DNA of 64,000 nucleotides, from NCBI GenBank assembly GCA_005223185.1, contig NJBN01000005.1, forward strand, positions 1 through 64,000. The letters are read 5' to 3'. The notes beneath the pieces were generated by a model. The model was not told the DNA's origin. It searched no databases and saw only the letters and a program-made list of their open reading frames with translations. A program made the translations under genes and the position numbers. Shown piece by piece: positions 1 to 22,519 of this stretch; within the stretch, counting starts at the first letter, position 1, and every line of letters starts with the position of its first letter. This stretch comes from a candidate division LCP-89 bacterium B3_LCP. GTDB taxonomy: Bacteria; Electryoneota; B3-LCP.

Positions 1-567
1 GAATTTGCAGTGCCAAAAGACATATTAAAGAATCAAGATTCGTATGAAAAAATTTCTAAGCTTTCGAAACAAACAAATGCAAATCTTGTGTTAGGCTCTT
101 TGGTAAATACGAAAGAGATTCACCCAGATGGTAGAGTTTCTATCTGGGATTCTGCATTCGTTTTTTCGCGAAACGGAACGCTTCATGGCCGTTATGATTC
201 TATCATGCCATTCCCTTTTGAAAATGATTTTATCTCCGGCGATAATCTCCCTATCTTTGAGATTGATGCAGGAAGATTCGGTATTACTATATGTTATGAA
301 GGACTTTATAATACTATTTATAAGCAATATTCAAAGTCAGATGTTCATTTTTTTATTTCAATAGCAAATAACGAACCAGTACACGATCCACATGCAATGC
401 ACACTAGTAGCCTTTTTACAAGATTAAGAGCAGCTGAAAACAGGAAATATCTAATAAGAGCAACCAATACAGGCATAACTCAAGTTGTTAATCCATACGG
501 GAAGGTAATAGCAAAATTGAAGCCAAATAAAGAAGGCATTTTATTAACAGAGATTTATTTGAGATGA
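1..567 (+). CDS. Carbon-nitrogen hydrolase / Lnt-like C-terminal part, 5'-truncated by window edge
   Basis: The reading frame is already open at base 1, so the annotated GTG at base 10 is probably internal and the gene starts outside the window. The 188 visible residues match the second half of the nitrilase superfamily, closest in pattern to apolipoprotein N-acyltransferase (Lnt). The first visible codons read EFAVP, which fits the region holding the catalytic Glu of Lnt, and GITICYE holds the nucleophile Cys. The segment that normally carries the catalytic Lys before the conserved Pro-Phe reads GRYDSIMPF and has no Lys, so the E-K-C triad looks incomplete. The tail has the usual NTGIT...NPYGK pattern. 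No membrane segments follow, unlike full Lnt. It could be a different amidase-type member; the substrate is unknown. Confidence 0.7.
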   Translation, partial: EFAVPKDILKNQDSYEKISKLSKQTNANLVLGSLVNTKEIHPDGRVSIWDSAFVFSRNGTLHGRYDSIMPFPFENDFISGDNLPIFEIDAGRFGITICYEGLYNTIYKQYSKSDVHFFISIANNEPVHDPHAMHTSSLFTRLRAAENRKYLIRATNTGITQVVNPYGKVIAKLKPNKEGILLTEIYLR

Positions 568-658
568 TCAACAAGGAGCGCATATCTTACCTACGGGCTG
601 CCCGATATTTCTGAGGCGCATATAGACATGTTGCAAATTTCTGACATATTTAATTTTT

Positions 659-2566
659 TTAAACATAAGGTATATCCTCATGAAACTTGATTCCATAAAC
701 ATAAATATAATTCCAGAATAAACCCTTTTTCCTTGATACATAAACACTAAAACCACACTCCCTGAATATCTTAGCTATCTTTTTATCATCACTCAGCCAT
801 GCAACATTAGGAATAAATTTAAAAAAATCAACATAATCAACAAAAACAATTTTGCCGCCGTAAGGCAGTAAATCCCTCATTTCCTTTAAAACCTTTTTAA
901 CATCCTGCAGATAACCCATCATGCCCATGCTTACAATTGCATCTACATTCGGCACATCAGGATGAACGCGGTTGATTTGATGCTTGTCATGGATAACTGT
1001 AACATGCATATGCCCCTTTCTAATTAATCTTTTTTTGGTTATCACCAAATCGTTTTCAGATAAATCAGTTGCATAAACTTTGCCTTTTGGCTTAACTATC
1101 TCTGCTAAGTCTATTGTCAAGGTGCCTACAGAGCATCCAAACTCTAAGACTGTTTTATTTTTTATATCGCCTAGTAACTTAAGAATTTCGTTTCTTACCC
1201 TTTTTGGCAATATCAGTTTTTCTGTTAATAATGTTAAATACGCTAAAGCATTATTTACCTTTACTATAGCATCAGGGTCATAATAAAAAACCAGCAAAAG
1301 ATAGATTGGCACACCAAGAAATATAAAAGATACACCTAAACTTAAAATATGCAGGGCGTCTGGTTCTGAAAAAATCCATGCTGCTAGTAAAGCAATCATA
1401 AGAAGAATTGTGATTATAGAACCAAATTTGCCAAAAGGGGCTTTGAATACCCTCTTAATATATGGTTTTTTGAATCTTAAAACTGTAACAGCAAAAATTG
1501 TAAATATATACATTATTATTCCTAATGGCAATAATAAGCCCAACAAAGTTTTGTATTTTCCAAAAGCCATTCCAAAAACAATTAATGAAACTATTGCCTG
1601 GAATATTATTGCTTTATGAGGTGTATGGAACTTTGGATGTACATCGCTTAACTGCGCTATAAACAACTTATCTCTTGCTAAAGCGAGAATAAGCCTCGGC
1701 ATAGCAATTATGCCGCCGGCTGCAGAGCCTATTAAAGCAAAAAAAACACCAAAATTAATCATTTTCATGCCTGCTGTGCCAAACATCTTCCCAAAAACAG
1801 CAGACAAAGGAGCATTCAACCCTATTAAAACCTTCCAAGGTATTATCCCCAGTGATACTGTAACTATTGAAATACCCAAAACAGCCGTTACAATCGTTCC
1901 TAAAACCAAAGCCATTGGTATAGTCTTTTCAGGATTTTTAGTTTCCTCAGCAAGGTAAGTAGCCGATTCCCATCCAAAAAAACTCTCTGCAATAAAAAAT
2001 ATTGTAACAAAAACAGGCAAATACCCATAACTAAAAAAGGGTGTTAGGTTACTGATATGCATATGGAAGATTCCGGGAAAAATAATAGACAGTAAGACAC
2101 TTATTGACAAGGCTGCAAATAATACTACAATAAATCCGCTGGCCTCTATGCCAAAATATGCAATTAAGTTTAATATTAAAATAAATGTTATGCTTATTCC
2201 TACTTTTAATAATACCCTTGAAGGATCTGGAATCAAATAATCAACAGCCGCTACTACCAATAAAGCAACTGTTAAATTTCCAACAATCCACGCAGTCCAT
2301 CCCATCATAAAAGAGGTAAATCTTGTATAGGCTTGTTTGCCATATTCATAGACGCCGCCTGCACTTGGAAACATTGAAACTAATTCGCCAAAAAACATAC
2401 TGATATAAATCGCAATAACAGCCAGTATGACCCATGACAATATTGATGCATTGCCAGAATAAGAAGCCCCTATAGAAGCACCGAAAAATATGCCTGTGCC
2501 CATTATATTGGCAATTGCCAAAGCCAGTATAGTCCAAAATCCCAGACCCCTCTTTAACTCAACCAT
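659..2566 (-). CDS. APC-family amino acid permease fused to a SAM-dependent methyltransferase
   Basis: The first ~440 residues form a multi-span permease of the amino acid-polyamine-organocation family, beginning with the typical first helix (NIMGTGIFFG) and ending after about twelve hydrophobic segments. After a short linker (~445-480) comes a class I methyltransferase domain: motif I is VLEFGCSVGT, followed by an acidic strand end (ATDLS) and a later GGKIVFVDY strand. Family knowledge gives amino acid transport for the first part; the methyl acceptor is unknown. The ATG at 2566 is preferred over one 11 codons upstream (2599) because it gives the normal APC N-terminus and because the upstream codons overlap a palindrome/TATA region. 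The gene is divergent from the Dph2-like gene. The fusion is read from one uninterrupted frame. Confidence 0.85.
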   Translation of the reverse strand: MVELKRGLGFWTILALAIANIMGTGIFFGASIGASYSGNASILSWVILAVIAIYISMFFGELVSMFPSAGGVYEYGKQAYTRFTSFMMGWTAWIVGNLTVALLVVAAVDYLIPDPSRVLLKVGISITFILILNLIAYFGIEASGFIVVLFAALSISVLLSIIFPGIFHMHISNLTPFFSYGYLPVFVTIFFIAESFFGWESATYLAEETKNPEKTIPMALVLGTIVTAVLGISIVTVSLGIIPWKVLIGLNAPLSAVFGKMFGTAGMKMINFGVFFALIGSAAGGIIAMPRLILALARDKLFIAQLSDVHPKFHTPHKAIIFQAIVSLIVFGMAFGKYKTLLGLLLPLGIIMYIFTIFAVTVLRFKKPYIKRVFKAPFGKFGSIITILLMIALLAAWIFSEPDALHILSLGVSFIFLGVPIYLLLVFYYDPDAIVKVNNALAYLTLLTEKLILPKRVRNEILKLLGDIKNKTVLEFGCSVGTLTIDLAEIVKPKGKVYATDLSENDLVITKKRLIRKGHMHVTVIHDKHQINRVHPDVPNVDAIVSMGMMGYLQDVKKVLKEMRDLLPYGGKIVFVDYVDFFKFIPNVAWLSDDKKIAKIFRECGFSVYVSRKKGLFWNYIYVYGIKFHEDIPYV

Positions 2567-2584
2567 AAACAAAAAATTTACAAT

Positions 2585-2612
2585 ATAGTATAAAAACAAT
2601 TGTTTATACTAT
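2585..2612. promoter_or_regulatory. Palindrome over the promoter of the permease-methyltransferase gene
   Basis: Outer arms ATAGTATA (2585-2592) and TATACTAT (2605-2612) flank the inner palindrome AACAATTGTT (2595-2604), with only two extra bases (aa) breaking full symmetry. On the minus strand the AT-rich core lies about 25-35 bases before the ATG at 2566, where an archaeal TATA box for a leaderless transcript would sit. It could be an operator for a repressor that competes with TBP. This is inference from position and symmetry. Confidence 0.45.
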
Positions 2613-2670
2613 GCTGTGGTAAATATAAAATCAATAACATTTAAAAATAAAACAGAATAACTACCTTGGT

Positions 2671-3336
2671 ATGAAAACACTCTTCATAGAATCAAAATTT
2701 AAAGGTAAAATTGAATTAAACAAAATCAAGGTAAATGAATTGCAAAAAAATATTGGTTTAATAACTGTTGTCCAATTTGTAAATCATTTAGAAAAAATAA
2801 AAAATTATCTGCTCAAAAACAATAAAAAAATACAGATAGCAAAAGGAAATCAAAAATATAAGGCTCAAATTTTAGGCTGCGACATATCTGCCGGATACAA
2901 GATAAAAAATAAGGTAGACGCTTTCCTCTATATAGGTGACGGAAAATTTCATCCTTGGGGATTGGCAATCAAAACAAAAAAAGAAGTTTTCTCTTTTAAT
3001 CCTCTAAATAATGATTTTTCAAGAATAAAAAAAGAAGAAATTGAGAAATATAAAAGAACCCAAAAAATAAAAAAAATCAGGTTTTTAAGCGCAGAAAATA
3101 TAGGCATTTTGGTTTCAACAAAACCCGGGCAGAGCAATCTGAAAAAAGCATTAGAAATAAAAAATAAACTGGAAAAAAAGGGTAAGAAATGCTTTATCTT
3201 TGTGTTTGACACTTTGAACTTAAATGACTTAGAAAATTTTCCATTTATTGACATGTGGCTTAACACAGCGTGTCCAAGAATAGAAGAAGATAGCAGGGAT
3301 ATTATTAATTTTGAAGATATTCCTAAAAGAAATTAA
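2671..3336 (+). CDS. dph2: Dph2-type diphthamide synthase, short form lacking domain 1
   Basis: The 221-residue protein matches domains 2 and 3 of archaeal Dph2, the [4Fe-4S] radical-SAM-like enzyme that moves a 3-amino-3-carboxypropyl group from SAM onto a histidine of elongation factor 2. The second cluster cysteine is in ILGCD (Cys70) and the third in NTACPRI (~residue 200); the GDGKFHPWGLAI block between them is also family-typical. Archaeal Dph2 proteins are usually about 320-340 residues and carry a first cysteine in an N-terminal domain; that domain is absent here, as is the usual C-terminal extension. The start ATG follows an AT-rich promoter region, and no coding continuation is visible upstream. 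It converges with the MscS gene, with stops four bases apart. Confidence 0.75.
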   Translation: MKTLFIESKFKGKIELNKIKVNELQKNIGLITVVQFVNHLEKIKNYLLKNNKKIQIAKGNQKYKAQILGCDISAGYKIKNKVDAFLYIGDGKFHPWGLAIKTKKEVFSFNPLNNDFSRIKKEEIEKYKRTQKIKKIRFLSAENIGILVSTKPGQSNLKKALEIKNKLEKKGKKCFIFVFDTLNLNDLENFPFIDMWLNTACPRIEEDSRDIINFEDIPKRN

Positions 3337-3340
3337 AACT

Positions 3341-4402
3341 TCACTTTTTCAGATAAACAGTTCTTGTAGGGAACGGAATTCCTATCTTTGCTTTGTTCAA
3401 AGCATTGTAAAACATGCAGGTTGCTTTCTCCTTTGTCTTAAACCTTTCTTTGTAATCAGCTACCCAGAATCTTGCTGAAAAATTCAGGGAAAAATCAGCC
3501 ATCTGCATAAACATGACTATTGGCCCAGGCTCCTTTAAAACATTATCTAATTTTTTAAGCTCTCCTAGAATTACCGTCTTAACCTTATCAACATCAGAGC
3601 CATACTCAACACCAAAATCAACAACAATCCTGGCAGAAGGATCTGGCAAAACAAGGTTCTCTATCCTGCTATCAACTAATTTACCATTTGGGATTACAAT
3701 TACTTCGTTATTAAACGTCTTGATTTTTGTGCTTCTTAAGCCAACATCCAGTACAGTGCCCATTGTCTGAGCATCAAGTTTTATAACATCCCCTACTTTC
3801 ACGCTTCTGTCCAGTATAAGTGAAATTCCGCCAAATATATTTCCCAAAGTGTTTTGAAGAGCAAACGCTATAGCAATACCTGCAATACCTAAACTTGCCA
3901 GTAAAGGACCAACTTTCAAGCCCCATAAATCCATAATAAACAATAATGTAAGTATTGCCAGAATAATTCTGGAAAACCTATGGAATAACGATAATAAATG
4001 CTCATCTAGCTTGGATTTGGTTTTTTGGGCAAAGCCCCTGCCCCATTCATCAATAATTATATCAAAAATCACGATTATAATATAAACAATTATTATTGCA
4101 ACAAGTGTGCCTATAACTTTTGAAACAATAAAATCAATATTAAAACCAAAAAAAGTGCCAATCTGAATAGGGACTAACGCCAATCTCAAACCAATTAAAA
4201 ATAAAACCAGGGAAATAGGCTTGTTTATTTTTTTGACAATCAAATCATCAACTCTTGTTTTTGTTTTTGCTGTTAATTTTAATATCCATCTTTCGGATAT
4301 AAAAACAATTATCTTCGCGATTATAAAAAAAGATACAAGAATAATCAATGCATGCAGATATTTATTCTCCCACAAAATATCAATCAGTTGGAAAATATCC
4401 AT
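3341..4402 (-). CDS. MscS-family small-conductance mechanosensitive channel
   Basis: The 353-residue membrane protein has about four hydrophobic N-terminal helices, then the conserved pore helix and beta domain of MscS: a Gly/Ala-rich stretch (SLGIAGIAIAFALQNTLGN), GGISLILDRSVKVGD, and VIVIPNGKL. It would open under membrane tension to release solutes during hypo-osmotic shock. The C-terminal alpha/beta vestibule domain is present, so the protein looks complete. It lies between the convergent Dph2-like gene and rpl10e on the same strand, 55 bases downstream of the latter. Confidence 0.9.
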   Translation of the reverse strand: MDIFQLIDILWENKYLHALIILVSFFIIAKIIVFISERWILKLTAKTKTRVDDLIVKKINKPISLVLFLIGLRLALVPIQIGTFFGFNIDFIVSKVIGTLVAIIIVYIIIVIFDIIIDEWGRGFAQKTKSKLDEHLLSLFHRFSRIILAILTLLFIMDLWGLKVGPLLASLGIAGIAIAFALQNTLGNIFGGISLILDRSVKVGDVIKLDAQTMGTVLDVGLRSTKIKTFNNEVIVIPNGKLVDSRIENLVLPDPSARIVVDFGVEYGSDVDKVKTVILGELKKLDNVLKEPGPIVMFMQMADFSLNFSARFWVADYKERFKTKEKATCMFYNALNKAKIGIPFPTRTVYLKK

Positions 4403-4457
4403 AAAAATGAGTAGATTAAATAATAGTATTTATAGTTTTCTAACAATTAAAGGATAG

Positions 4458-4982
4458 TTACTTATTTTCTTTTACGTCTATTATGCAGGAACAAGGTAGT
4501 TTTTTGAGAGCCCTCTTCAAAGCCTGCCTCGCAGTATCTAAACCGTTTTTTTCAACGCCCACCTCGAATATAATCTGCCCTTTCTTAACTCTTGCAGCAG
4601 AGCCTATAGGCTTCCCAAATGACTTTTGCATTCCCGTGCTAAACCTGTCAGCTCCTGCGCCTGCTGCTATTGGGTTTTCCCTTAAAACATGAAACGGGTA
4701 AATCCTCAGCTTCATTTTAAAGCCAGTTAACCCCAATGTTCTTTCTAATAGCCTATTGGTTGTCATTCTTGCGCTCTCTATTGCATTGTCCCTTATCTGC
4801 AGGTCGTTTTTAGAAACAAGATTTGCTGTGAATGGAAATTTTTTCTTTAAATTGCCTGTCTCAAACTTTGCTATTAGGACATTAGGGGTTATTCTAATGA
4901 AAGACTTATCCTTAAACTTAGAAGTCCTTGTATAAGGTCTTTCTAATTTCCTGTAAGATGTGAATTTTCTTAATCTTGCCAT
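4458..4982 (-). CDS. rpl10e: 50S ribosomal protein L10e (uL16), archaeal type
   Basis: The 174-residue protein begins MARLRKFTSYRKLERPYTRT, the archaeal/eukaryotic L10e form of uL16, and carries the family blocks FHVLRENPI, GADRFSTGMQ and KGQIIFEVG. uL16 sits between the A site and the central protuberance of the large subunit. This is the clearest archaeal marker in the first 8.5 kb. It has its own AT-rich upstream region (TATA-like TTTAAAAATATA about 40 bases before the ATG) and is divergent from the pilin-like gene at 5161. Confidence 0.95.
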   Translation of the reverse strand: MARLRKFTSYRKLERPYTRTSKFKDKSFIRITPNVLIAKFETGNLKKKFPFTANLVSKNDLQIRDNAIESARMTTNRLLERTLGLTGFKMKLRIYPFHVLRENPIAAGAGADRFSTGMQKSFGKPIGSAARVKKGQIIFEVGVEKNGLDTARQALKRALKKLPCSCIIDVKENK

Positions 4983-5044
4983 TTTAGTCTTATTAAGAAA
5001 TTATAGTATATTTTTAAATGTTTGGTATAATCCAGTAGGTAATT

Positions 5045-5103
5045 CCGAAAGTTACAAAAACTAAGTTTTTGAACTTCGAAAATACTCCGTATTTTCGAAA
5101 GTT
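5045..5103. repeat. Two adjacent hairpins between divergent archaeal genes
   Basis: The first hairpin has arms GTTACAAAAACT (5051-5062) and AGTTTTTGAAC (5064-5074), one bulge. The second has perfect 11-base arms TTCGAAAATAC (5075-5085) and GTATTTTCGAA (5089-5099) around TCC. The motif CGAAAGTT occurs on both flanks (5046-5053 and 5096-5103). The block lies between rpl10e (-) and the pilin-like gene (+), upstream of the TATA-like TTTAAATAAG. It could be a regulatory element or the footprint of a small repeat element. Confidence 0.6.
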
Positions 5104-5160
5104 ATTTAAATAAGTTTAATAAAAATAAGTATATCATATTCAAAAAGAGGTGAATAGATA

Positions 5161-5712
5161 ATGCTGTTTAAAAACAAAAAGTCTTCTCTTGAGTTATCTA
5201 TACGGACAATTGTTGTTGTTGTTCTGGCTATGACACTATTAGGTTTGGGTTTAGGTTTTATCAGGGGGATGTTCAAAGATATCACTGGAATTTCAACAGA
5301 CGTTTCAGAGCAGGTAAGGCAAAAAATTTTAGACGATTTAATAACAGGCGATAAAAAAATATCATTCCCGAAAACAGAGATTAAGATTGACAAAGGCCAA
5401 GCAGAAACACTGACAGTAGGGGTTAGAAACAAAAAAGATACAATATTACACTATAAAATAAGATTCACGCCTATTTCAGACCCGCAGGGCAATCCTTTTA
5501 ATGTAGACAGCCCGGCATGGTTCCAATTCGCAAAAGATACTGTTTATGAATTATCGGCAGCAGACTCTGCTGTGAGAAACATCAGGTTAAGTATGCCGAC
5601 AAGCGTAAATGCAGGCTCTTACTTTCTGACATTTGATGTTGTTGATGATGATTTAGCTTCACCGAACAATATTTATGATTCAAAAGACTTTTTCATAGTT
5701 GTGAGGGGCTAA
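5161..5712 (+). CDS. Membrane-anchored pilin-like secreted protein
   Basis: The 183-residue protein has a short basic N-terminus followed by LELS and a single hydrophobic helix (~residues 15-35), the layout of archaeal class III signal peptides seen in type IV pilin-like proteins. The rest is predicted extracellular and beta-rich, ending in a YFLTFDVVDDD-type strand. A good Shine-Dalgarno (GAGGTG) lies nine bases before the ATG. It is the first gene of a four-gene rightward cluster of similar exported proteins. The precise function is not recognisable; a pseudopilin or surface-display role is inference. Confidence 0.6.
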   Translation: MLFKNKKSSLELSIRTIVVVVLAMTLLGLGLGFIRGMFKDITGISTDVSEQVRQKILDDLITGDKKISFPKTEIKIDKGQAETLTVGVRNKKDTILHYKIRFTPISDPQGNPFNVDSPAWFQFAKDTVYELSAADSAVRNIRLSMPTSVNAGSYFLTFDVVDDDLASPNNIYDSKDFFIVVRG

Positions 5713-5713
5713 A

Positions 5714-5938
5714 ATGGCAGGAAAAATGAAAAAAAGGCTATCAGAGCAGCAGGAATTTGAGGTAATGAAGCTTGTCCTGGACAAATTCTTATGGTTAGGA
5801 TTTATCATAATGGCTTTTGGCATGTATAAGATGTTTACAGACACAATTTATACAGGGTTAACGTGGATTGTTGTGGGAGCAGTTCTTTTGGTGATATTCA
5901 TGCTGATTATAGTGAAAGAATACGAGATTGTCAGGTAA
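5714..5938 (+). CDS. Small two-helix membrane protein
   Basis: The 74-residue protein starts one base after the stop of the preceding pilin-like gene, so the two are almost certainly co-translated. It has two hydrophobic helices (about residues 26-42 and 49-67) and charged ends. I do not recognise a family. Its position between two pilin-like exported proteins suggests an accessory membrane part of the same surface structure, which is inference. Confidence 0.6.
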   Translation: MAGKMKKRLSEQQEFEVMKLVLDKFLWLGFIIMAFGMYKMFTDTIYTGLTWIVVGAVLLVIFMLIIVKEYEIVR

Positions 5939-6071
5939 TTTTTCTTTTTTTATTATTCTCAGTAACTCCATTTAAAATCATTAAATATAAATATAAGTTA
6001 TCCAATAAACTCAATCAGTAAAGAGGCAGCGGAAATAAACTTCCTGGCCTTTTTCTGTTAAATAAAAAAAG

Positions 6072-6869
6072 GTGTCTAAAATAAAATATAAATATTTCAT
6101 TATAATATTGTCAATATGTATACTTCTTATCAGCGGCTGTAAAGGAGAATGCAAACTCAAGTCTGACTGCATTCCTAAAGAATGCACAATAGTAAATTGT
6201 ATTAATAAAAACTGCCAATATACCAATATAAAAAACTGCTGCGGCAACAGGCTAAAGGAAGAGATAGAAGACGGCAAACCAGGAAATAAATGTACGTGCC
6301 CGGCAGATTACGGCAGGTGTGAAGGCAAGGGTAAAATTCAGGTTGGCTCAAGAACATACGATGCACAGTATCTGAAATATATCTGCGAAAATAACAAATG
6401 TGTTTTGGGTGTTGACAAAGACGACTTAAAAGAGCTTACATTACTTGACGAGAGAGATTTCAGTTATTTCAAATTAGAAACACTAACAACATTTAACAAA
6501 CCATTTGACACAAGAAAGGATTCTTTCCACTTCAGGATAAGATTAAAAGATATCAACGATGAATTGGTACTGCCGGTTAAAATAAACAAGATTATCCTAA
6601 GGGACGGGGAAGTTTTGTTTGGAGAAAAAAATGTTGAGCAGGTTTTAAACGGCATAGGGGATAAAATAATTGTAAAAGTGCCTGTAACATACGATCTGGA
6701 GCAATTAGAGGAGCAAAGGGGCTTAAGCTATAAAATGGATTATGAATACACAAAAAAGGTAAAAGACCAGAGGTTGGAAAATGGTTCTTATACATTTAAG
6801 GAAGAACTTGTCAGAGACGATTACGAAAATAAATTCCAGACAAAGATTTTCTTTGTGAAATCAGGTTAA
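6072..6869 (+). CDS. Cysteine-rich lipoprotein-like exported protein
   Basis: The 265-residue protein starts at a GTG (an in-frame TAA lies just upstream and no ATG is available). It opens with a hydrophobic signal (~residues 8-21) ending LLISGCKG, which resembles a lipobox with Cys as first mature residue. Residues ~22-115 contain over a dozen cysteines in pairs (for example NCC, CTCP), suggesting a disulfide-knotted extracellular module. The C-terminal half resembles the beta-rich parts of the flanking pilin-like proteins. The upstream gap 5939-6071 contains a T-run like an archaeal terminator and a TATA-like AAATATAAATA. No precise function is recognised. Confidence 0.6.
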   Translation: MSKIKYKYFIIILSICILLISGCKGECKLKSDCIPKECTIVNCINKNCQYTNIKNCCGNRLKEEIEDGKPGNKCTCPADYGRCEGKGKIQVGSRTYDAQYLKYICENNKCVLGVDKDDLKELTLLDERDFSYFKLETLTTFNKPFDTRKDSFHFRIRLKDINDELVLPVKINKIILRDGEVLFGEKNVEQVLNGIGDKIIVKVPVTYDLEQLEEQRGLSYKMDYEYTKKVKDQRLENGSYTFKEELVRDDYENKFQTKIFFVKSG

Positions 6870-6881
6870 TATGGGTTAAGA

Positions 6882-7397
6882 ATGGATAAAAAAGGAATTG
6901 AACTATCAATAAATTTTCTCGTTATCATCATAATATCCCTGATTGTATTTGGTTTTGGAGCCCGCTTTATCTATCAGCTGGGTTCTGAGGCTGTAAAATT
7001 GCAAAGCATGACTGTAGAAGAGTTGGATAGAAAAATAGGCATTCTGGCTTGTGAAGGCTCAGAAAGAGTCTGTTTTGGTTTTGATAGAAAAATTATAAAA
7101 AGAGGCAAATTGGGGGTTTTTGGCCTGAGAATAATAAATATTTTGGATAATCAAGACTTTGATGTACTTGTTAGCAGGCCAACTCCTTCTGGCTATACAA
7201 AAAAAGGCGAAGATATAGTAAGTGATAATTTAATAGTCAAGCCAGAGTCAAGAAGTGTTTATATTCAAAAAAATGAAGAAAAAGATCTTGCTATAGGTGT
7301 TGAAGTCCCAAAAGATGCCAGGGCAGGCATCTACATATTTGATGTCAGAGTCATGCCTTATGAAGCCCTGCATAAGATTTATGTTGAAGTGCCTTAG
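6882..7397 (+). CDS. Membrane-anchored pilin-like secreted protein, second copy
   Basis: The 171-residue protein begins MDKKGIELSINFLVIIII, again a basic stretch plus LS followed by one hydrophobic helix, matching the class III signal style of the 5161 gene. Its C-terminal strands (AGIYIFDVRV) parallel AGSYFLTFDV in that protein, so the two are probably paralogues. Two cysteines at ~54 and ~63 may pair outside the cell. It follows the cysteine-rich lipoprotein by 12 bases and ends in a four-base tail-to-tail overlap with tpiA. Confidence 0.6.
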   Translation: MDKKGIELSINFLVIIIISLIVFGFGARFIYQLGSEAVKLQSMTVEELDRKIGILACEGSERVCFGFDRKIIKRGKLGVFGLRIINILDNQDFDVLVSRPTPSGYTKKGEDIVSDNLIVKPESRSVYIQKNEEKDLAIGVEVPKDARAGIYIFDVRVMPYEALHKIYVEVP

Positions 7398-8140
7398 AAA
7401 TCAACTATTTCAGAAAAACTCTCTGCATCCAAGCTTGCTCCTCCTACCAGAACACCATCAATACTCTCTTTTTCCATTAAGTCTTTTATATTATCTGGCT
7501 TTACACTCCCACCATAAAGAATTCTTATATCATCAGCAATTCCCTTTCCATAAATTTTTTCTATTTCCTTTCTGATAAAAACATGGACATCTTCTGCCTG
7601 CTCAGGAGTTGCATTCTTTCCTGTGCCTATTGCCCAAACAGGCTCATAAGCAATTATTATTCTCTTCATACTATTTTTATTTACGCCTTTTAATGATTTT
7701 TCTAATTGCTCACCTACGATATCAAATGTCTCATTTTTTTCTCTTTGTTCTAAACTCTCTCCTACACACAATATCGGCCTCAAACCATGCTCTAATGCTT
7801 TTTTTACCTTTTTATTTACCTTCTCGTCACTTTCATCAAAGTACTGCCTTCTTTCAGAATGGCCTAAAATTACATACTCGCAGAAATCCTTTAACATTAA
7901 AGGTGAGACTTCACCAGTATATGCTCCTTTATCTTCAAAATACATATTCTGGGCTCCTAATTTAATATTAGAGCCTTTTACTTCATCATAAACAGAGCCT
8001 AGAGCAGTAAAACTTGGACAAATAAGAATATCCCTGTTTTTTACATTTTTTAACCTATTTTTCAATGATTTTGCCAGAGAAACAGATTCTTGTAAATTTT
8101 TGCTCATCTTCCAGTTCCCTGCAATAAATGGCCTTCTCAT
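7394..8140 (-). CDS. tpiA: Triosephosphate isomerase, bacterial-length type
   Basis: The enzyme interconverts dihydroxyacetone phosphate and glyceraldehyde 3-phosphate in glycolysis/gluconeogenesis. All active-site blocks are visible: GNWKM near the N-terminus (Lys), VILGHSERR (His), YEPVWAIGTG (Glu with the flexible loop) and LYGGSV (phosphate binding). At 248 residues it has the bacterial/eukaryotic length, whereas typical archaeal enzymes are nearer 220-230 residues. The surrounding base composition is the same as the archaeal neighbours, so it is resident in that genome and may be an old transfer from bacteria. Confidence 0.95.
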   Translation of the reverse strand: MRRPFIAGNWKMSKNLQESVSLAKSLKNRLKNVKNRDILICPSFTALGSVYDEVKGSNIKLGAQNMYFEDKGAYTGEVSPLMLKDFCEYVILGHSERRQYFDESDEKVNKKVKKALEHGLRPILCVGESLEQREKNETFDIVGEQLEKSLKGVNKNSMKRIIIAYEPVWAIGTGKNATPEQAEDVHVFIRKEIEKIYGKGIADDIRILYGGSVKPDNIKDLMEKESIDGVLVGGASLDAESFSEIVDF

Positions 8141-8149
8141 GTTTTTTCT

Positions 8150-8500
8150 TTATTTAGCCTTCTTTAAATATTTTTTTATTTTATCGGAATAAAAAATAAC
8201 AAATAAGCCGCTTAAAAACAAAAAGAATGAAAAAACTAAAGTAGTTACAACAATATTAATAACCATATCATAAAAAAGCTGCTGCGGGTAAAGAACCACA
8301 ATGTTCTCAAAAGAAGGCTCAAAAACATAAGTTCCTGCTCTGAAAAAAATTCTGTGCATCAGCTCAAAAGTAAAGTCGAAATTCAACATCACTATTAACC
8401 AGAAGATAAAAGCGTCCAGTAAAGTTAAAGCTCCTGAAAATAAAAAAACAACTCCTGTATTTTTTATAATGTTTTTAATATTTTTATTCACTAGGCTCAA
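8150..8500 (-). CDS. Small multi-helix membrane protein, unknown
   Basis: The 116-residue protein has hydrophobic stretches at about 15-40 and 78-105 and lysine-rich ends. The start is taken as a TTG at 8500; a GTG three codons later is an alternative. It lies nine bases upstream of tpiA on the same strand and could share its transcript. No family is recognised. It is the last AT-rich gene before the composition break. Confidence 0.5.
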   Translation of the reverse strand: MSLVNKNIKNIIKNTGVVFLFSGALTLLDAFIFWLIVMLNFDFTFELMHRIFFRAGTYVFEPSFENIVVLYPQQLFYDMVINIVVTTLVFSFFLFLSGLFVIFYSDKIKKYLKKAK

Positions 8501-8713: not shown

Positions 8714-9181
8714 ATGACTGAAAAACGCCAGATTGCAGGAAACCGCAAAGCTCGCAGGGATTATCATATCCTCGATAAGTACGAAGCAGGAATATGCCTT
8801 TTGGGTACAGAGGTGAAAAGCCTACGAATGGGCAGTGCCAATTTGAAGGACAGTTATGCTGCGGTACGGAACGGCGAAGTATTCTTGCACAACGTGCATA
8901 TCGGACCGTACGACAAAGGCAACATCGCCAACCACGAACCGATGCGAGTGCGTAAGTTGCTGCTGCAAAAACGTCAGATCAATAAACTGCAATCAGCGAC
9001 GCAAGATAAGGGACTCACGCTAATCCCCTTGTCATTATACTGGAAAGGTAACATTGCCAAGGTCGAGTTAGCCACAGCTCGAGGGAAACGGCAGTACGAC
9101 AAGCGAGATGCAATAACCAAGCGCGAACAAGCGCGAGAATTAGATCGAGTGATGAAGGATCATCTGAAATACAACAGATAA
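8714..9181 (+). CDS. smpB: SsrA-binding protein SmpB
   Basis: SmpB binds tmRNA and delivers it to stalled ribosomes for trans-translation. The 155-residue protein has the full family pattern: [10 protein letters not shown] and GTEVKSLR near the N-terminus, [15 protein letters not shown], and the basic C-terminal tail beginning [10 protein letters not shown] that mimics an mRNA/anticodon in the A site. Bacteria have this protein and archaea do not, so it marks the bacterial part of the window. Its TAA stop shares one base with the tyrS ATG (TAATG), which implies translational coupling. No ssrA gene is seen in this window. Confidence 0.97.
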
Positions 9182-13477: not shown

Positions 13478-16255
13478 TTAGCGCTTATATTCCCTGGCAT
13501 GTTCCTCGCACAGCCACAGGAAGTGACCCTCAGGGGTTTCCGTTTTCCTCAAACCACCCCAGAGTTGACGATCATCCTCTTTATCCAACAACTGCCGCAA
13601 TTCTCGCAAATCAGCCCCTTCAAAACGTGCGGGATGATCAGAGACGTCATACCCTCTAATATCTCCATTCTCAAAGAATTTCTTACTTTCCGGGAGTTTA
13701 TTAGCCAATTCTTTCATCAATTCTATGTCGTGGTGAAACAGCTTCTCGTATTCAGGCCAGGCAACCGCCATCCAGGGACCTGCTATGGGAGCGGCAAATT
13801 TCAGGACTGAAACCAGCTTGCCAATGTATGGTGCCATCTTGCTTAGCCAACCAGCAGGCTCTTTAATAATATAACGCCCTCCCTCCTTCGTGGGGTGCCA
13901 GCAGCCGGGCGCCTGACAGTATAGCTGCAGCTCCACCTTTTGCTGAAAAGATTTTTTCAGCCATCCATCAGATTCAACCGGCCGTAGAACAAAGACGTTA
14001 GGGCAATGAGTTTCGCCGTACCGCTGGATATCGTAATAATCTTTGATGAATTCACGCTGAGCCCATGATAAAATCTGCAGTAACTCGTAGGTCTTTTCTT
14101 GATTTTGTGAGATCTCCTCCAGTTCCTTCAATATCCTCATTAATAAATTCGAATCATCTGTTGGAACTCGCAATTGAGTACCTAAGATTAGATCGTGCAC
14201 AGGTATTTCTTTAAAGGTATTATAGCACTGTAAGGTTTTCTCTCCTGCCTTAACTGCTCTTTCCACATGTGTTAGATCAAACTCGTGGACACACTTACCA
14301 CCATTTTCACAGGGACACGGCACTGTCCGTTTTATATCTAATCCAGGAAACCGATTTAGCGTCAGTTCTAAACCATCCCTTAGCAGCGCGAAGAAGTTAT
14401 ACGGCAGAGCACCGCGCACGTTCAACTGAAGGTAACGCTCAAAAGAATGAGACCTGATCGATCCGTAATGCTTCTGTTCCTCGCCTTCAGCAAATAGCGC
14501 TCCATAGCGCCAGTGAGTATTCGTAGTGAAACGGTGCGTCCGGGCGATGAACCAGGTGGGAATGCCGGCAGGAATCGTATTTAAGTAGAATTTCATGGAT
14601 ATCTCCCGGCAAAATTCACCGGCAGCAGCCGCATCCCAGTCCTTCTGGAATATTTTCGGCTCGTCCTTGGAAAGCCTCTCGACAACGATACTGATCTGCC
14701 TGTTCTCCAGCGTTCTGTAGGACAGATCGAATTTTTCCATCAGTTTGAGGAAGTGCTCCTGCATTGTAGGATCTAAATCTGACCAGAGGTCCTCCATATG
14801 CGTACGGTGCAAAATGCCATCACCCTCTTTGACATCCTTGCTGATCAAAACCCTGTTGATATGATCGGTCACCCACTGAGGTTTCAAAATGACCAGACCT
14901 TTCAGTTCCTCATCATCCTTGAAGAAGAGGATGTCTCCTAATTCGTGCAACCACTGAGCCAGCACTTTGGCTTCCTTCTCTTCTATTTCATTATCTTTCA
15001 GGATATCCCAAAATTCTTTCGATGAGATCCACTGCCGGTCATTACCGCGGATTGCCTCGGCAGTGTTCAGCCACTTGGAGGGCCAGTTTTCACCCATCAG
15101 CGGCAGATCAGCCGCCTGTTCGGTGATTGCCTGTTTAAGTTCTTCGATGCCGGTTCCATCGCGGTTGCTGACCGCCCAATGACCTTTGACCTGGGGATAT
15201 TTCCGCTTCAAATCCTCCAGCGCCAGGTCGGCGTGGTGCTGATCGATGTGCGTAGCCACGATCATCACCGGCGATTCGGGCGCTTTTGCCTTGATGGTAT
15301 CCAGCCAGTAATGGAGTTTGCCCTGTTCCCAGCCGTGGCGGGCGTTCCAGACCAATAAAAACAGCGAACGGTTGGTCAGAAAAAACTGGTGAGTTGCATG
15401 CGATATGGACTGCCCGGCAAAATCCCAGCAATTGAGGCGCATGGTGACGCCTTTCTCCTTAGGATGATCCAAATCTAACTTTCTTATTACCACACCAGGG
15501 GTGGTCTCTTCATGATCATCGAACTTCTCACCCTTTAAACAATGCAGGAGCGAAGTCTTACCCACTCCGCCCTCCCCAACCAACAGCAGCTTGGAAAGCC
15601 ATTGCTGTTGTTGGGAAACCAACTTCTCCCGCAGGTAGGTGAGAATGGCAGCAATTCCCTGGGATACGATATCCGGTGGAGGATCGGTAAGTGAAATTTC
15701 ATAGATGCTTAGTACAGTTAGATTAGTTAGTTTGCCGATCTCAGGGGGAAGGCTGGTTAGATAATTACCATCAAGGGCAAGACGAAATAAATTTGTCAGA
15801 TTGCCGATCTCAGGAGGAAGGCTAGTTAGTTGATTATTAGCAAGGTCAAGAGCACCTAAATCTGTCAGATTGCCTAACTCAGAGGGAAGGGTGGTTAGTT
15901 GATTGCGATTGAGGTAAAGAAATTCAAAACTGGTCAGATTGCCGATTTCGGGAGGAAGGCTATTTAGTTGATTATCAGAGAGGGAAAGATTAATTATATT
16001 GGTCAGATTACCAAACTCTGATGGAAGACTGGTTAGTTGATTATAATCAAGGTACAGATTAGTTAAATTGGTCAGATTGCCGATTTCGGGGGGAAGACTG
16101 GTTAGTTGATTATTAGCGAGATAAAGATAAGTTAAATTGGTCAGATTGCCGATTTCGGGGGGGAGTTCGGTTATCTTTTTACTTGAAAGATCGAGCGTTG
16201 TAACCTCATCCCTGGCGGCTTTTTCTATGATTTTGAGTAGTTGTTTTTTGGTCAT
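13478..16255 (-). CDS. Leucine-rich-repeat Roco protein (LRR-Roc-COR)
   Basis: The ATG at 16255 is preceded by GGAG nine bases upstream and gives 925 residues; the longer open frame to 16522 runs through palindromic intergenic DNA and is rejected. Residues ~18-200 hold eight leucine-rich repeats of 23 residues with the LPPEIGNLTNL consensus. A Ras-like Roc GTPase follows: P-loop GEGGVGKTS (227-235), DFAGQ (278-282), THID (335-338). The COR dimerisation domain spans ~385-610. The C-terminal ~300 residues include a CPCENGGKC cysteine cluster, a hydrophobic segment (LKFAAPIAGPWMAVAW) and a terminal LWLCEEHA motif. Roco proteins are GTP-regulated dimers; bacterial roles are mostly unknown. It stands alone between palindrome-rich gaps, which suggests an accessory gene. 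Confidence 0.93.
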   Translation of the reverse strand: MTKKQLLKIIEKAARDEVTTLDLSSKKITELPPEIGNLTNLTYLYLANNQLTSLPPEIGNLTNLTNLYLDYNQLTSLPSEFGNLTNIINLSLSDNQLNSLPPEIGNLTSFEFLYLNRNQLTTLPSELGNLTDLGALDLANNQLTSLPPEIGNLTNLFRLALDGNYLTSLPPEIGKLTNLTVLSIYEISLTDPPPDIVSQGIAAILTYLREKLVSQQQQWLSKLLLVGEGGVGKTSLLHCLKGEKFDDHEETTPGVVIRKLDLDHPKEKGVTMRLNCWDFAGQSISHATHQFFLTNRSLFLLVWNARHGWEQGKLHYWLDTIKAKAPESPVMIVATHIDQHHADLALEDLKRKYPQVKGHWAVSNRDGTGIEELKQAITEQAADLPLMGENWPSKWLNTAEAIRGNDRQWISSKEFWDILKDNEIEEKEAKVLAQWLHELGDILFFKDDEELKGLVILKPQWVTDHINRVLISKDVKEGDGILHRTHMEDLWSDLDPTMQEHFLKLMEKFDLSYRTLENRQISIVVERLSKDEPKIFQKDWDAAAAGEFCREISMKFYLNTIPAGIPTWFIARTHRFTTNTHWRYGALFAEGEEQKHYGSIRSHSFERYLQLNVRGALPYNFFALLRDGLELTLNRFPGLDIKRTVPCPCENGGKCVHEFDLTHVERAVKAGEKTLQCYNTFKEIPVHDLILGTQLRVPTDDSNLLMRILKELEEISQNQEKTYELLQILSWAQREFIKDYYDIQRYGETHCPNVFVLRPVESDGWLKKSFQQKVELQLYCQAPGCWHPTKEGGRYIIKEPAGWLSKMAPYIGKLVSVLKFAAPIAGPWMAVAWPEYEKLFHHDIELMKELANKLPESKKFFENGDIRGYDVSDHPARFEGADLRELRQLLDKEDDRQLWGGLRKTETPEGHFLWLCEEHAREYKR
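15656..16204 (-). repeat. 69-base tandem repeats encoding the LRR block
   Basis: Eight 69-base units encode the 23-residue leucine-rich repeats. Neighbouring units share long identical stretches at DNA level (around the codons for LPPEIGNLTN), so unit number could change by slippage or recombination. The outermost unit before the GTPase has diverged (DPPPDIVSQ) and acts as a cap. Confidence 0.8.
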
Positions 16256-16281
16256 GGCGTGTTTCTCCGGGGGGAGGTTGT

Positions 16282-16365
16282 CTGAACCCACTGATACACG
16301 CGGATGTCGCGGATTGCACGGATCTATCCGCGTTATCAGTGTCATCCGTGCCCATCCGTGGTTCC
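16282..16365. repeat. Palindromic dispersed element, CTGAAC family copy 1
   Basis: Terminal arms CTGAACCCACTGAT (16282-16295) and ATCCGTGGTTC (ending 16364) pair imperfectly, and an inner stem pairs CTGATACACGCGGAT (16291-16305) with ATCCGCGTTATCAG (16326-16339). Related sequences occur at 21366, 22239 and 22408. Confidence 0.55.
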
Positions 16366-16455
16366 GACTATTCTTGCTCGTTGCGATGGGTGGCATGCTT
16401 CTGGATCGCCGCAGGCGAGACGAAGCATGTTCTAGATTGTAATCTCCTTGCAGGG

Positions 16456-16509
16456 GTGGCCGGGACAGCTTCCCCAAAGGGGCTGACGAAGTCAGGATGT
16501 CCCGGCTAC
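16456..16509. repeat. Cloverleaf-like nested palindrome
   Basis: An outer stem pairs GTGGCCGGGACA (16456-16467) with TGTCCCGGCTAC (16498-16509), 11 of 12 matching. Inside are two side-by-side hairpins: CCCC-aaa-GGGG (16472-16482) and CTGAC-gaa-GTCAG (16483-16495). Folded as single strand it makes a three-way junction. No coding sequence is seen. Confidence 0.7.
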
Positions 16510-16527
16510 AACCTAATATCACCTGTG

Positions 16528-16643
16528 CCGCAGAGTCCCCGTACTCTGCGGGTGCTCCACAGCTCTGCTGTGGATTTCGTTATAATCTCCACCCGAATAA
16601 ATTTCGGGTGCTCACATTTTAGATCCAAGTCACTGAAGTGACT
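16528..16643. repeat. Run of four different perfect hairpins
   Basis: CCGCAGAGT (16528-16536) pairs with ACTCTGCGG (16543-16551); TCCACAGC (16556-16563) with GCTGTGGA (16567-16574); CACCCGAA (16590-16597) with TTCGGGTG (16603-16610); AGTCACT (16628-16634) with AGTGACT (16637-16643). None is followed by a T-run, so they are not ordinary terminators. Confidence 0.7.
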
Positions 16644-16659
16644 GAGGTTTTTCCTGTTA

Positions 16660-16692
16660 CGTCAGGTCCTGAAGCATTGCGGAGACCTGACG
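16660..16692. repeat. GTCAGGTC hairpin, copy 1
   Basis: CGTCAGGTC (16660-16668) pairs with GACCTGACG (16684-16692). The same element, reversed and with a different loop, occurs at 21611-21642, which shows this is a dispersed family rather than a local accident. Confidence 0.7.
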
Positions 16693-16786
16693 CTTCCTGG
16701 TCAAGGGAAATTTAAGGCATGGTTTTAGAATTTGCAAGTGGGGAATGGGTTTTTTGGTTTTAGGAGGTGTGGGTTGTATTACTGAT

Positions 16787-16824
16787 CCCCCCTTGTCAAG
16801 GGGGGTGTCCCGCCTAGGCGGGAC
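16787..16824. repeat. Two abutting palindromes
   Basis: CCCCCCTTG (16787-16795) pairs with CAAGGGGGG (16797-16805). Directly next to it GTCCCGCCT/AGGCGGGAC (16807-16824) is a perfect 18-base palindrome. They close the palindrome-rich block behind the Roco gene. The remaining 16825-17143 holds no gene I can support; a weak inverted pair GGACAAA/TTTGTCC is at 17040-17067. Confidence 0.65.
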
Positions 16825-17143
16825 GGGTGGATTAAAATTCTCCCAAATTTCCCTTGCTTTTCCCCACTATCTGTTGTATATTATATATAAGACGTCTAAT
16901 ATCCTAAACATTCTTCCCCAAAAAACACATCCCGACAATGCACCTCGTCCATATTCTACCATCTTCCAACTTCGTCAATAATGTCGCCACCCAAAAATCA
17001 CCCACCCAATTCCAGCACGAATTGCATGACAATTCTGTCGGACAAAACTGACCGCCACAATTTGTCCGCCAAATCTGTCACTTTCCATACCGCCTCAGAC
17101 CCCACTCGGTAATTGCCTCCTTTTTCTCAAGAAGGGAGTTTCT

Positions 17144-18016
17144 TCAAGCACGGATAGTGGCTGGAAAGATGAAATCACCATCAAGTTGGAATTCATCGGT
17201 GACAAACAGTATGCTATCAGTCACTTCTATTTTCTGGGGATTTGAAACATCATGGCGGTCTGTGCAGAACATAAATTCAATTTCTTCCTTCTGAAAATGA
17301 CTCAGGAAGAAATCGATATCTTCAAGTCGAGGCGTTCTTTCAGCGATTATATCATACACTCGCAGCCGTTCGCCAGCATCTTCTGCAACCACGACGATAT
17401 CCATATCTTCGAGATAATACAACTGTTCCTGGTGAGGATAAAGCAGCATAAACAACAGTAAATTAGGGTTCTCGAAACCCAGCCTATCAGACACCGGTTC
17501 CCTTGAATGTGCTAAGCGGTTCAGGATGGCAAAGTCAGCGTCGCTCGCGACATTGAGCTTTCTGAAACGACTCATGTCACTGTGCGAAGATGATGAATAT
17601 TTGACTCTATCGAATCGTTCTGCTGGTCGCTTGAATCCTAGTTTGTCATAGAATCCGGCGGCAGAATCATCGGTGAAGAGGAAAGTTAGTTGGCAATGCT
17701 GTTTTATCCAGTCGTGCGCTCTCTCCCAGAGTTCTCTCTGAATGCCCTGCAAACGATACTCAGGCAGCGTACCTACCGTTAATAACTGCGCCCATTTCTC
17801 CCTTCTTCCGTTGATAGTGATCTCTGAGGGAAAAACACATATCGAGGCAATGCATTCGCCATCGACGAATGCGGAGAAGGGGATATATTGGTCATCCCAC
17901 AGACCTCTATCTTTCCAGCGTCCAAAGTCCAAACCGAAGATGCTATATGCATATCGTTCGAAGGAACCTTTGGCTTTAGCATCTGAGAAATAGTGGGTGC
18001 GGTATTTGATGGTCAT
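17144..18016 (-). CDS. GNAT-family N-acetyltransferase
   Basis: The 290-residue protein has a GNAT fold in its first ~150 residues: beta strands around ASICVFPSEI and WAQLLTVGTLPEYRLQGIQRELW, where RLQGIQ fits the acetyl-CoA pyrophosphate loop (R/QxxGxG/A). SAAGFYDKLGF matches the usual C-terminal GNAT motif. The extra ~140 residues after this are not assigned. The acyl acceptor is unknown. AGGG seven bases before the ATG supports the start. It sits alone downstream of a small zinc-ribbon gene. Confidence 0.8.
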   Translation of the reverse strand: MTIKYRTHYFSDAKAKGSFERYAYSIFGLDFGRWKDRGLWDDQYIPFSAFVDGECIASICVFPSEITINGRREKWAQLLTVGTLPEYRLQGIQRELWERAHDWIKQHCQLTFLFTDDSAAGFYDKLGFKRPAERFDRVKYSSSSHSDMSRFRKLNVASDADFAILNRLAHSREPVSDRLGFENPNLLLFMLLYPHQEQLYYLEDMDIVVVAEDAGERLRVYDIIAERTPRLEDIDFFLSHFQKEEIEFMFCTDRHDVSNPQKIEVTDSILFVTDEFQLDGDFIFPATIRA

Positions 18017-21302: not shown

Positions 21303-21402
21303 GGTTGGTCCTCAGAAAGTATGAATTACGAAGGATGAATTGGATGTTGAGTTAGAATGCTTTTTCTGAACCACTGATTGCCACTGATTTCGCTGATTAT
21401 TT

Positions 21403-21610: not shown

Positions 21611-21642
21611 CGTCAGGTCTCCACTTCGTTAAGGACCTGACG
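21611..21642. repeat. GTCAGGTC hairpin, copy 2 (inverted)
   Basis: CGTCAGGTC (21611-21619) pairs with GACCTGACG (21634-21642). Read on the other strand it matches the 16660 element on both arms including the GGTCCT/GGAGACC flanks of the loop. It lies 11 bases past the stop of the SnoaL-like gene. Confidence 0.7.
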
Positions 21643-21653
21643 CAACGGTAAAA

Positions 21654-22184: not shown

Positions 22185-22238
22185 GAAATGCCTCCTCTTC
22201 TTTTATAATGGTTAGCACAACCAATGACTGATGCTTTA

Positions 22239-22340
22239 CCACTGTTTCACACTGATCCGTCAGCAGACGGACAAGTTCATGGATGACACAGATTATTTTA
22301 TCTGCGAAATCCGCGAAATCTGCATGAATCTGTGGTTCAG
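22239..22340. repeat. CTGAAC family element, copy 3 (degenerate left end)
   Basis: The right end is AATCTGTGGTTCAG (22327-22340), and the centre contains GGATGACACAGAT and CGAAATCC, both shared with the copy at 22408-22490. The left end is only loosely complementary. Confidence 0.5.
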
Positions 22341-22352
22341 GTTTTTTACTGG

Positions 22353-22384
22353 ATTCCGGGTAGGGCTGAAAGCCCTCCCGGAAT
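22353..22384. repeat. Near-perfect hairpin ATTCCGGG/CCCGGAAT
   Basis: Arms ATTCCGGG-t-AGGGCT (22353-22367) and AGCCCTCCCGGAAT (22371-22384) pair with a single bulged T around a gaa loop. Confidence 0.65.
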
Positions 22385-22407
22385 GACAATTAGTCACCCT
22401 TCTTTGT

Positions 22408-22490
22408 CTGAATCGCTGATTGCCACTGATTATTGGATGACACAGATAGTATCAACGAAATCCCATAATCTGTGAGAATCTGTGATTCAG
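22408..22490. repeat. CTGAAC family element, best copy
   Basis: Left terminus CTGAATCGCTGATT (22408-22421) and right terminus AATCTGTGATTCAG (22477-22490) are inverted with 12 of 14 matches, enclosing 55 bases. The sequence is non-coding. Confidence 0.55.
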
Positions 22491-22519
22491 ATGATTTTTT
22501 TAGATAGCAGACCTGCTTG

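Follow-up and report, generated by a model that had tools for sequence, protein, structure and literature searches.

Genomes that carry several classes of REP, GTGG feet, REPtrons specific for a single repeat, and mosaic intergenic repeat regions have all been described previously (PMC3686654, PMC3733652, PMC6006769). TnpAREP has been described as a probable mobiliser of REPs, with the mechanism of their dissemination still unresolved (PMC8266576). The locus considered here is an unusually crowded case of this already described kind, namely REP elements together with RAYT or IS200-type transposases. It lies in a window of 64,000 nucleotides (the whole stretch of DNA that was analysed) from the genome of a candidate division LCP-89 bacterium (3.79 Mb, 18 contigs, 95.8% complete). 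We label this genome G000 and use C numbers for its contigs, L numbers for extracted loci or genes, and other G numbers for relatives. The array occupies a mostly repeat-derived intergenic interval (16256-17143), which is flanked by two minus-strand genes, respectively coding for an LRR-Roc-COR (Roco) protein (13478-16255) and a GNAT-domain protein (17144-18016). We distinguish nine named blocks in it (F1, F2, F3, F4a, F4b, F5, G, F7 and F8) and an extra low-copy segment, F6:

F1, 16279..16369, no strand assigned: ~80-bp palindrome with four 9-10-bp-periodic CACGGAT-type units per arm and ends GTCTGAACC / GGTTCCGAC
F2, 16386..16434, plus strand: REP-like hairpin GTGG-CATGCTTC..GAAGCATG with an inner hairpin
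F3, 16454..16508, plus strand: REP, GTGG-CCGGGACA..TGTCCCGG, with two inner hairpins
F4a, 16525..16551, plus strand: hairpin GTGC-CGCAGAGT..ACTCTGCG
F4b, 16552..16574, plus strand: hairpin GTGC-TCCACAGC..GCTGTGGA, abutting F4a head to tail
F5, 16588..16650, plus strand: double hairpin, CACCCGAA..TTCGGGTG and AGTCACT-gaa-AGTGACT
G, 16655..16697, plus strand: hairpin of the GCGTCAGGTC..GACCTGACGC type, singled out in a sequence-only reading of this DNA as the GTCAGGTC hairpin
F6, 16708..16785, plus strand: low-copy repeat segment
F7, 16785..16830, plus strand: two abutting palindromes, CCCCCCTTG-T-CAAGGGGGG and GTCCCGCCT-AGGCGGGAC
F8, 16836..17092, plus strand: dispersed promoter-like repeat with a TTGCTT-N17-TATATT core followed by a conserved leader of ~190 bp

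Like the REPs associated with RAYT/TnpAREP proteins in REPtrons, which bear GT[AG]G tags (PMC2817692, PMC6006769, PMC8266576), several of these blocks are dispersed, short, imperfect palindromes with, in F2 and F3, a GTGG foot; F3 likewise stands inverted on either side of a single RAYT, with one REP class per transposase. Unlike classical REPs with their hundreds of copies (PMC2817692, PMC6006769, PMC8266576), the families here have at least about 9-26 copies each, many of them are stacked in one intergenic space, and some show a GTGC foot or no canonical foot. The IS200/IS605-type elements offer a second parallel, as the TnpA L011 is bounded by hairpins and gene-less F5 hairpin dimers are dispersed in the genome; in contrast to such elements, L011 has +/- dimers at each of its two sides, which is the arrangement of REPtrons. 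Multi-family REP genomes, such as those of Stenotrophomonas and the Pseudomonas fluorescens group (PMC3686654, PMC3733652), also contain several REP classes per genome, each with its own RAYT, whereas here unrelated families abut and are mixed with the non-REP palindromes F1, G and F7. The interleaving of different families further recalls the mosaic intergenic regions of Neisseria, in which CGTC-1 / dRS3 repeats are interleaved with others, as cited in PMC3733652; the families are however different, and some of those studied here have linked transposases, while the CGTC REPs are reported to have none.

The interval 16282-16824 contains eight perfect, non-overlapping hairpins (stem of at least 8, loop of at most 24) whereas 200 dinucleotide-shuffled versions had 0.09 +/- 0.29 on average and never more than one; if stems of 7 are also admitted, the count is nine, against 0.6 in shuffles. 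This makes it the densest 543-bp stretch for hairpins in the window. The F3 hairpin (16460-16505), an 8-bp stem enclosing two inner hairpins, is absent from the count of eight because its loop of 30 exceeds the limit, and its inclusion brings the total to nine. Each of the nine units, taken as single-stranded DNA, folds more stably than its shuffled versions (z -2.6 to -5.0), and the stems show no mutual relatedness. The sequence-only reading, which had listed at least nine different palindromes with unrelated stems in 16282-16824, was thus correct on both points. The repeat DNA, however, does not end where this reading placed the limit but runs on past 16824 as F8 to about 17092. What it had taken for a cloverleaf, F1, is better described as the periodic palindrome listed above, the consensus of which (built on an alignment of 41 matches) folds as one long hairpin.

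Such a concentration of hairpins could in principle belong to one structured non-coding RNA, as the same reading had suggested as an alternative, or to a long hairpin-rich regulatory leader between the GNAT and Roco genes. The interval would indeed be transcribed by read-through, lying as it does between two co-directional genes, its hairpins fold well and F8 has a promoter-like core. However, no Rfam covariance model matched at its gathering score, relaxing the limit to an E of 1 added nothing above chance level, and a search of the stretch for tRNA and tmRNA found none. Moreover, each hairpin recurs separately in unrelated surroundings, the whole order is kept at no other locus found, and in relatives the same families occur at other loci, with this array in none of them. 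An RNA locus is therefore exceedingly improbable, which cautions against taking every dense run of hairpins in an environmental genome for an RNA gene.

The possibility that the stems occur nowhere else in the genome does not hold: nearly all of them recur in the 3.79 Mb as discrete families with sharp ends. A search of the genome with the whole stretch gave 56 matches that sort into discrete query blocks, and block-by-block searches, the counts of which are lower bounds where only the best 40 candidates were scored, placed F1 in at least about 13 places, F2 and F3 in at least 26 each, F5 in at least 17, F8 in at least 25, and F4a, F4b, G and F7 in at least about 9-12 each. The block cores are conserved, and in profile alignments of F1, F2, F3 and F5 the stem changes between copies preserve pairing. 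Copies of F2 and F3 have sharp ends, with flanks that vary from copy to copy. The F1 matches (71-89% identity) are in some cases found on both strands because the unit nearly equals its own reverse complement. Further F1-like palindromes are present in the window at 21365-21399 and 22238-22492, and a 10-bp-periodic CACGGAT array like an F1 arm is seen in two IMG/VR viral contigs (L262:3567-3603 and L263:2399-2435). G has a second copy in the window at 21611-21646 on the minus strand, and F4b has several matches in the relative G004. F8 has six long copies, with ~20 more that are partial or limited to the core, and its core is also found in G001 and G003; its copies precede unrelated genes at several loci, and several are directly preceded by a hairpin repeat. 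The idea that F8 is an insertion-sequence end was rejected: visual inspection of the ORFs listed next to the copies revealed no transposase gene, and the genes that follow it are unrelated.

Comparison with paralogous loci indicates how the blocks may have come together. In C9 F3 (61026-61086) is joined directly to F8 (60760-61022), and in C18 F3 (280137-280204) is likewise joined directly to F8 (from 280207), with a short linker similar to that of C9. In the window F4a-F4b-F5-G-F6-F7 intervene between F3 and F8, over ~320 bp. The GNAT gene was used to look for an orthologous empty site, but its orthologs in G001 and G003 show no synteny. As the evidence for an empty site is paralogous, part of the mosaic could also have arisen when paralogous F8 blocks recombined with one another. 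In its strongest form this alternative traces most of the array to homologous recombination among repeat blocks (F2-F3-F8 and F6-F7-F8), or to their segmental duplication, and not to successive insertions. It gains from the 96% identity, linker included, of the window's F2-linker-F3 to C18:280077-280208, and from C6:79399-79728, where F6 (86-87% identical), F7 (90% identical) and F8 follow in the same order as in the window; a partial copy of F6 is present at C9:144039. Against it, the central F4a, F4b, F5 and G belong to no recurring block found, and most copies of F2 and F3 elsewhere have unrelated flanks. We accordingly regard recombination as an unlikely main source of the array, although these two shared segments make it likely that insertion and exchange between repeat blocks each contributed. 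A MITE spanning F6-F7 through a 12-bp inverted repeat, CAAGGGAAATTT (16702-16713) / AAATTTCCCTTG (16845-16856), was also considered and set aside, as the left arm is missing from the copy in C6 and the right one is part of F8.

A REP-associated (IS200/IS605-like) transposase with matching stems, which the sequence-only reading had pointed to as a check, is encoded in the same genome: F3, F4a and F5 flank Y1/RAYT-type genes. There are ten Y1_Tnp (HUH) transposase genes in the genome, most with hairpins in their flanks. Among the nine tested with NCBIfam models, L013-L016 exceed the cut-off of REP_Tyr_transpos, L017 and L018 match it below the cut-off, and L009, L011 and L012 are IS200-type. The RAYT L015 (G000:C14:106189-106725; 82.5 bits to NF047646, cut-off 80) has inverted F3 copies on its two sides, the downstream one being identical to the F3 of the window over 55 bp. 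Its ortholog L166 in G001, which belongs to another genus (62% identical protein), also has F3 on both sides; G003 contains F3 copies too, but a RAYT of the F3 type was not found there. The RAYT L016 (G000:C4:145799-146281; 99.7 bits to NF047646) is surrounded on both sides by several copies of CGCTGAGT..ACTCAGCG and related hairpins, and the CGCTGAGT variants among them share their loop with F4a; F4a-like copies and a RAYT similar to L016 (L145) are also present in G015, from another family. The IS200-type TnpA L011 (G000:C12:418296-418604; 69.8 bits to NF033573, cut-off 55) has F5 +/- dimers on both sides, and F5 dimers are also found on one side of RAYT L018. With copies placed at random in the 12% of the genome assumed to be non-coding, the probability of such two-sided flanking is 0.001-0.006 per family. 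Beyond this genome, shared-stem hairpins stand in both flanks of many of the Y1 genes that six relatives encode, and of most RAYTs in a more distant set of 15; in related RAYTs of distant phyla the hairpins are mostly inverted on the two sides and differ in their stems, many with GTGG/GTGC feet. One of the RAYTs of the genome has its nearest named relative, at 46% identity, in a MAG of Candidatus Electryonea clarkiae, which hints only faintly at affiliation.

Linked transposases are thus seen for only three of about nine families. Judged by its sequence features F3 is a REP: in most of the copies aligned, GTGG immediately precedes the CCGGGACA stem on its 5' side, the element is dispersed over many contigs with its window copy extragenic within 16256-17143, and the cognate RAYT lies between two inverted copies. 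F2 combines a hairpin and multiple copies with a GGGTGG foot in nearly all of them, and its architecture resembles that of hairpins, GGGTGC-CATGCAGG..CCTGCATG-TTCTTG, that flank a related RAYT from a Phycisphaerales MAG. However, none of the ten Y1 genes here (in a genome about 96% complete), nor those of the six relatives, is flanked by F2 on both sides, and its pattern had no exact match in the genome_contigs database; as no cognate RAYT was found for it we do not class it as a confirmed REP. At C7:241992, C12:27959, C16:173550 and C16:184453 F2 directly follows a GTAGCGCGGGGGCTTGCCCCC-type REP, of the kind flanking RAYT L013, and the two C16 loci have the same F2-REP junction. The canonical GT[AG]G tag is absent from F4a, F4b and F5, the foot of F4a being GTGC. 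From the hairpins bounding L011, F5 looks like a derivative of IS200-type ends. F1, G, F7, F4b and F8 are dispersed repeats. No Y1 transposase was found beside F1, no transposase association was found for G and no mobiliser for F7, and no transposase was found flanked on both sides by F4b, a truncated RAYT near F4b in G004 having a different upstream hairpin. G was also considered as a CGTC REP and rejected, as this would require an unpaired CGTC tag at the hairpin end, whereas the CGTC of G sits within the paired stem.

These associations also bear on the idea that selection maintains the hairpins as intrinsic terminators or as sites for protein binding, and that they are not mobile elements. 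Such roles have been proposed for REPs elsewhere (PMC3733652) and there are three terminator-like matches in 16200-17200. This count is however near the shuffled expectation of 1.7, and terminators or binding sites would leave the sharp element boundaries and the association with transposases unexplained, which makes this a very unlikely account. Given the hairpin excess, the separate recurrence, the sharp ends, the transposase associations and the paralogous loci lacking the middle block, the region from 16279 to about 17092 is very probably a mosaic of unrelated, non-autonomous palindromic elements accumulated side by side, of which at least F3, F4a and F5, and F2 by its architecture, would be of REP or IS200-end type. 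Against this weigh the low copy numbers, the restriction of linked transposases to three of about nine families, the GT[AG]G tag missing from F4a, F4b and F5, and the F3 copies of G003, for which no RAYT of that type was found. In a landing zone of this sort, Y1 HUH transposases (RAYTs or IS200-type TnpA) would recognise the F3, F4a and F5 hairpins in their folded, single-stranded DNA form, and cognate enzymes encoded elsewhere in the genome may have copied or moved the elements into this site. By extension from studies on TnpAREP and REPs (PMC8266576, PMC2817692), the folded hairpins might be substrates that the cognate HUH enzyme cuts and joins, and might spread in this way, with the elements of the array being passengers. 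The coexistence of transposase-hairpin pairs with paralogous sites that have and lack the inserts provides natural insertion records for testing specificity and target choice.

The region of the window outside the array calls for one comment. Positions 1-8500 have a GC content of 33.5% and encode an archaeal/eukaryal uL16-type ribosomal protein (4458-4982), whereas the remainder has ~46% GC and is bacterial (SmpB at 8714-9181); these differences make it probable that the contig is a chimera, with the change near 8.5-8.7 kb.

The sequence-only reading had favoured a collecting site for many small elements, and the separate dispersed families, the three that flank Y1/RAYT-type genes and the paralogous loci without part of the array all support this, as does the clustering of families elsewhere. 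Outside the array of the window, 30 pairs of different families lie within 300 bp of each other, against a null mean of 13.4 and a maximum of 25 in 1000 placements confined to 12% of the genome, taken as its non-coding space; this null, like that for the flanking of transposases, was computed on copy lists from searches that scored a capped number of candidates. REP beside REP is exemplified by F2, which at four loci comes immediately after a GTAGCGCGGGGGC-type REP. The existing hairpins or the F8 region might make the site receptive. It is conceivable, though doubtful, that hairpins attract hairpins in general, with REP-type elements of different RAYTs preferring sites beside existing REPs or F8, so that intergenic spaces become self-reinforcing, multi-family collecting arrays. 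The families were defined from the array of the window, so its nine families are no independent measure of array size. A count that ignored family revealed a second array from C7:479268 onwards (L062), where a 543-bp stretch holds nine perfect hairpins, the majority with different stems; it includes F2 and TCGGGGTC-type hairpins resembling those beside the RAYTs L014 and L017.
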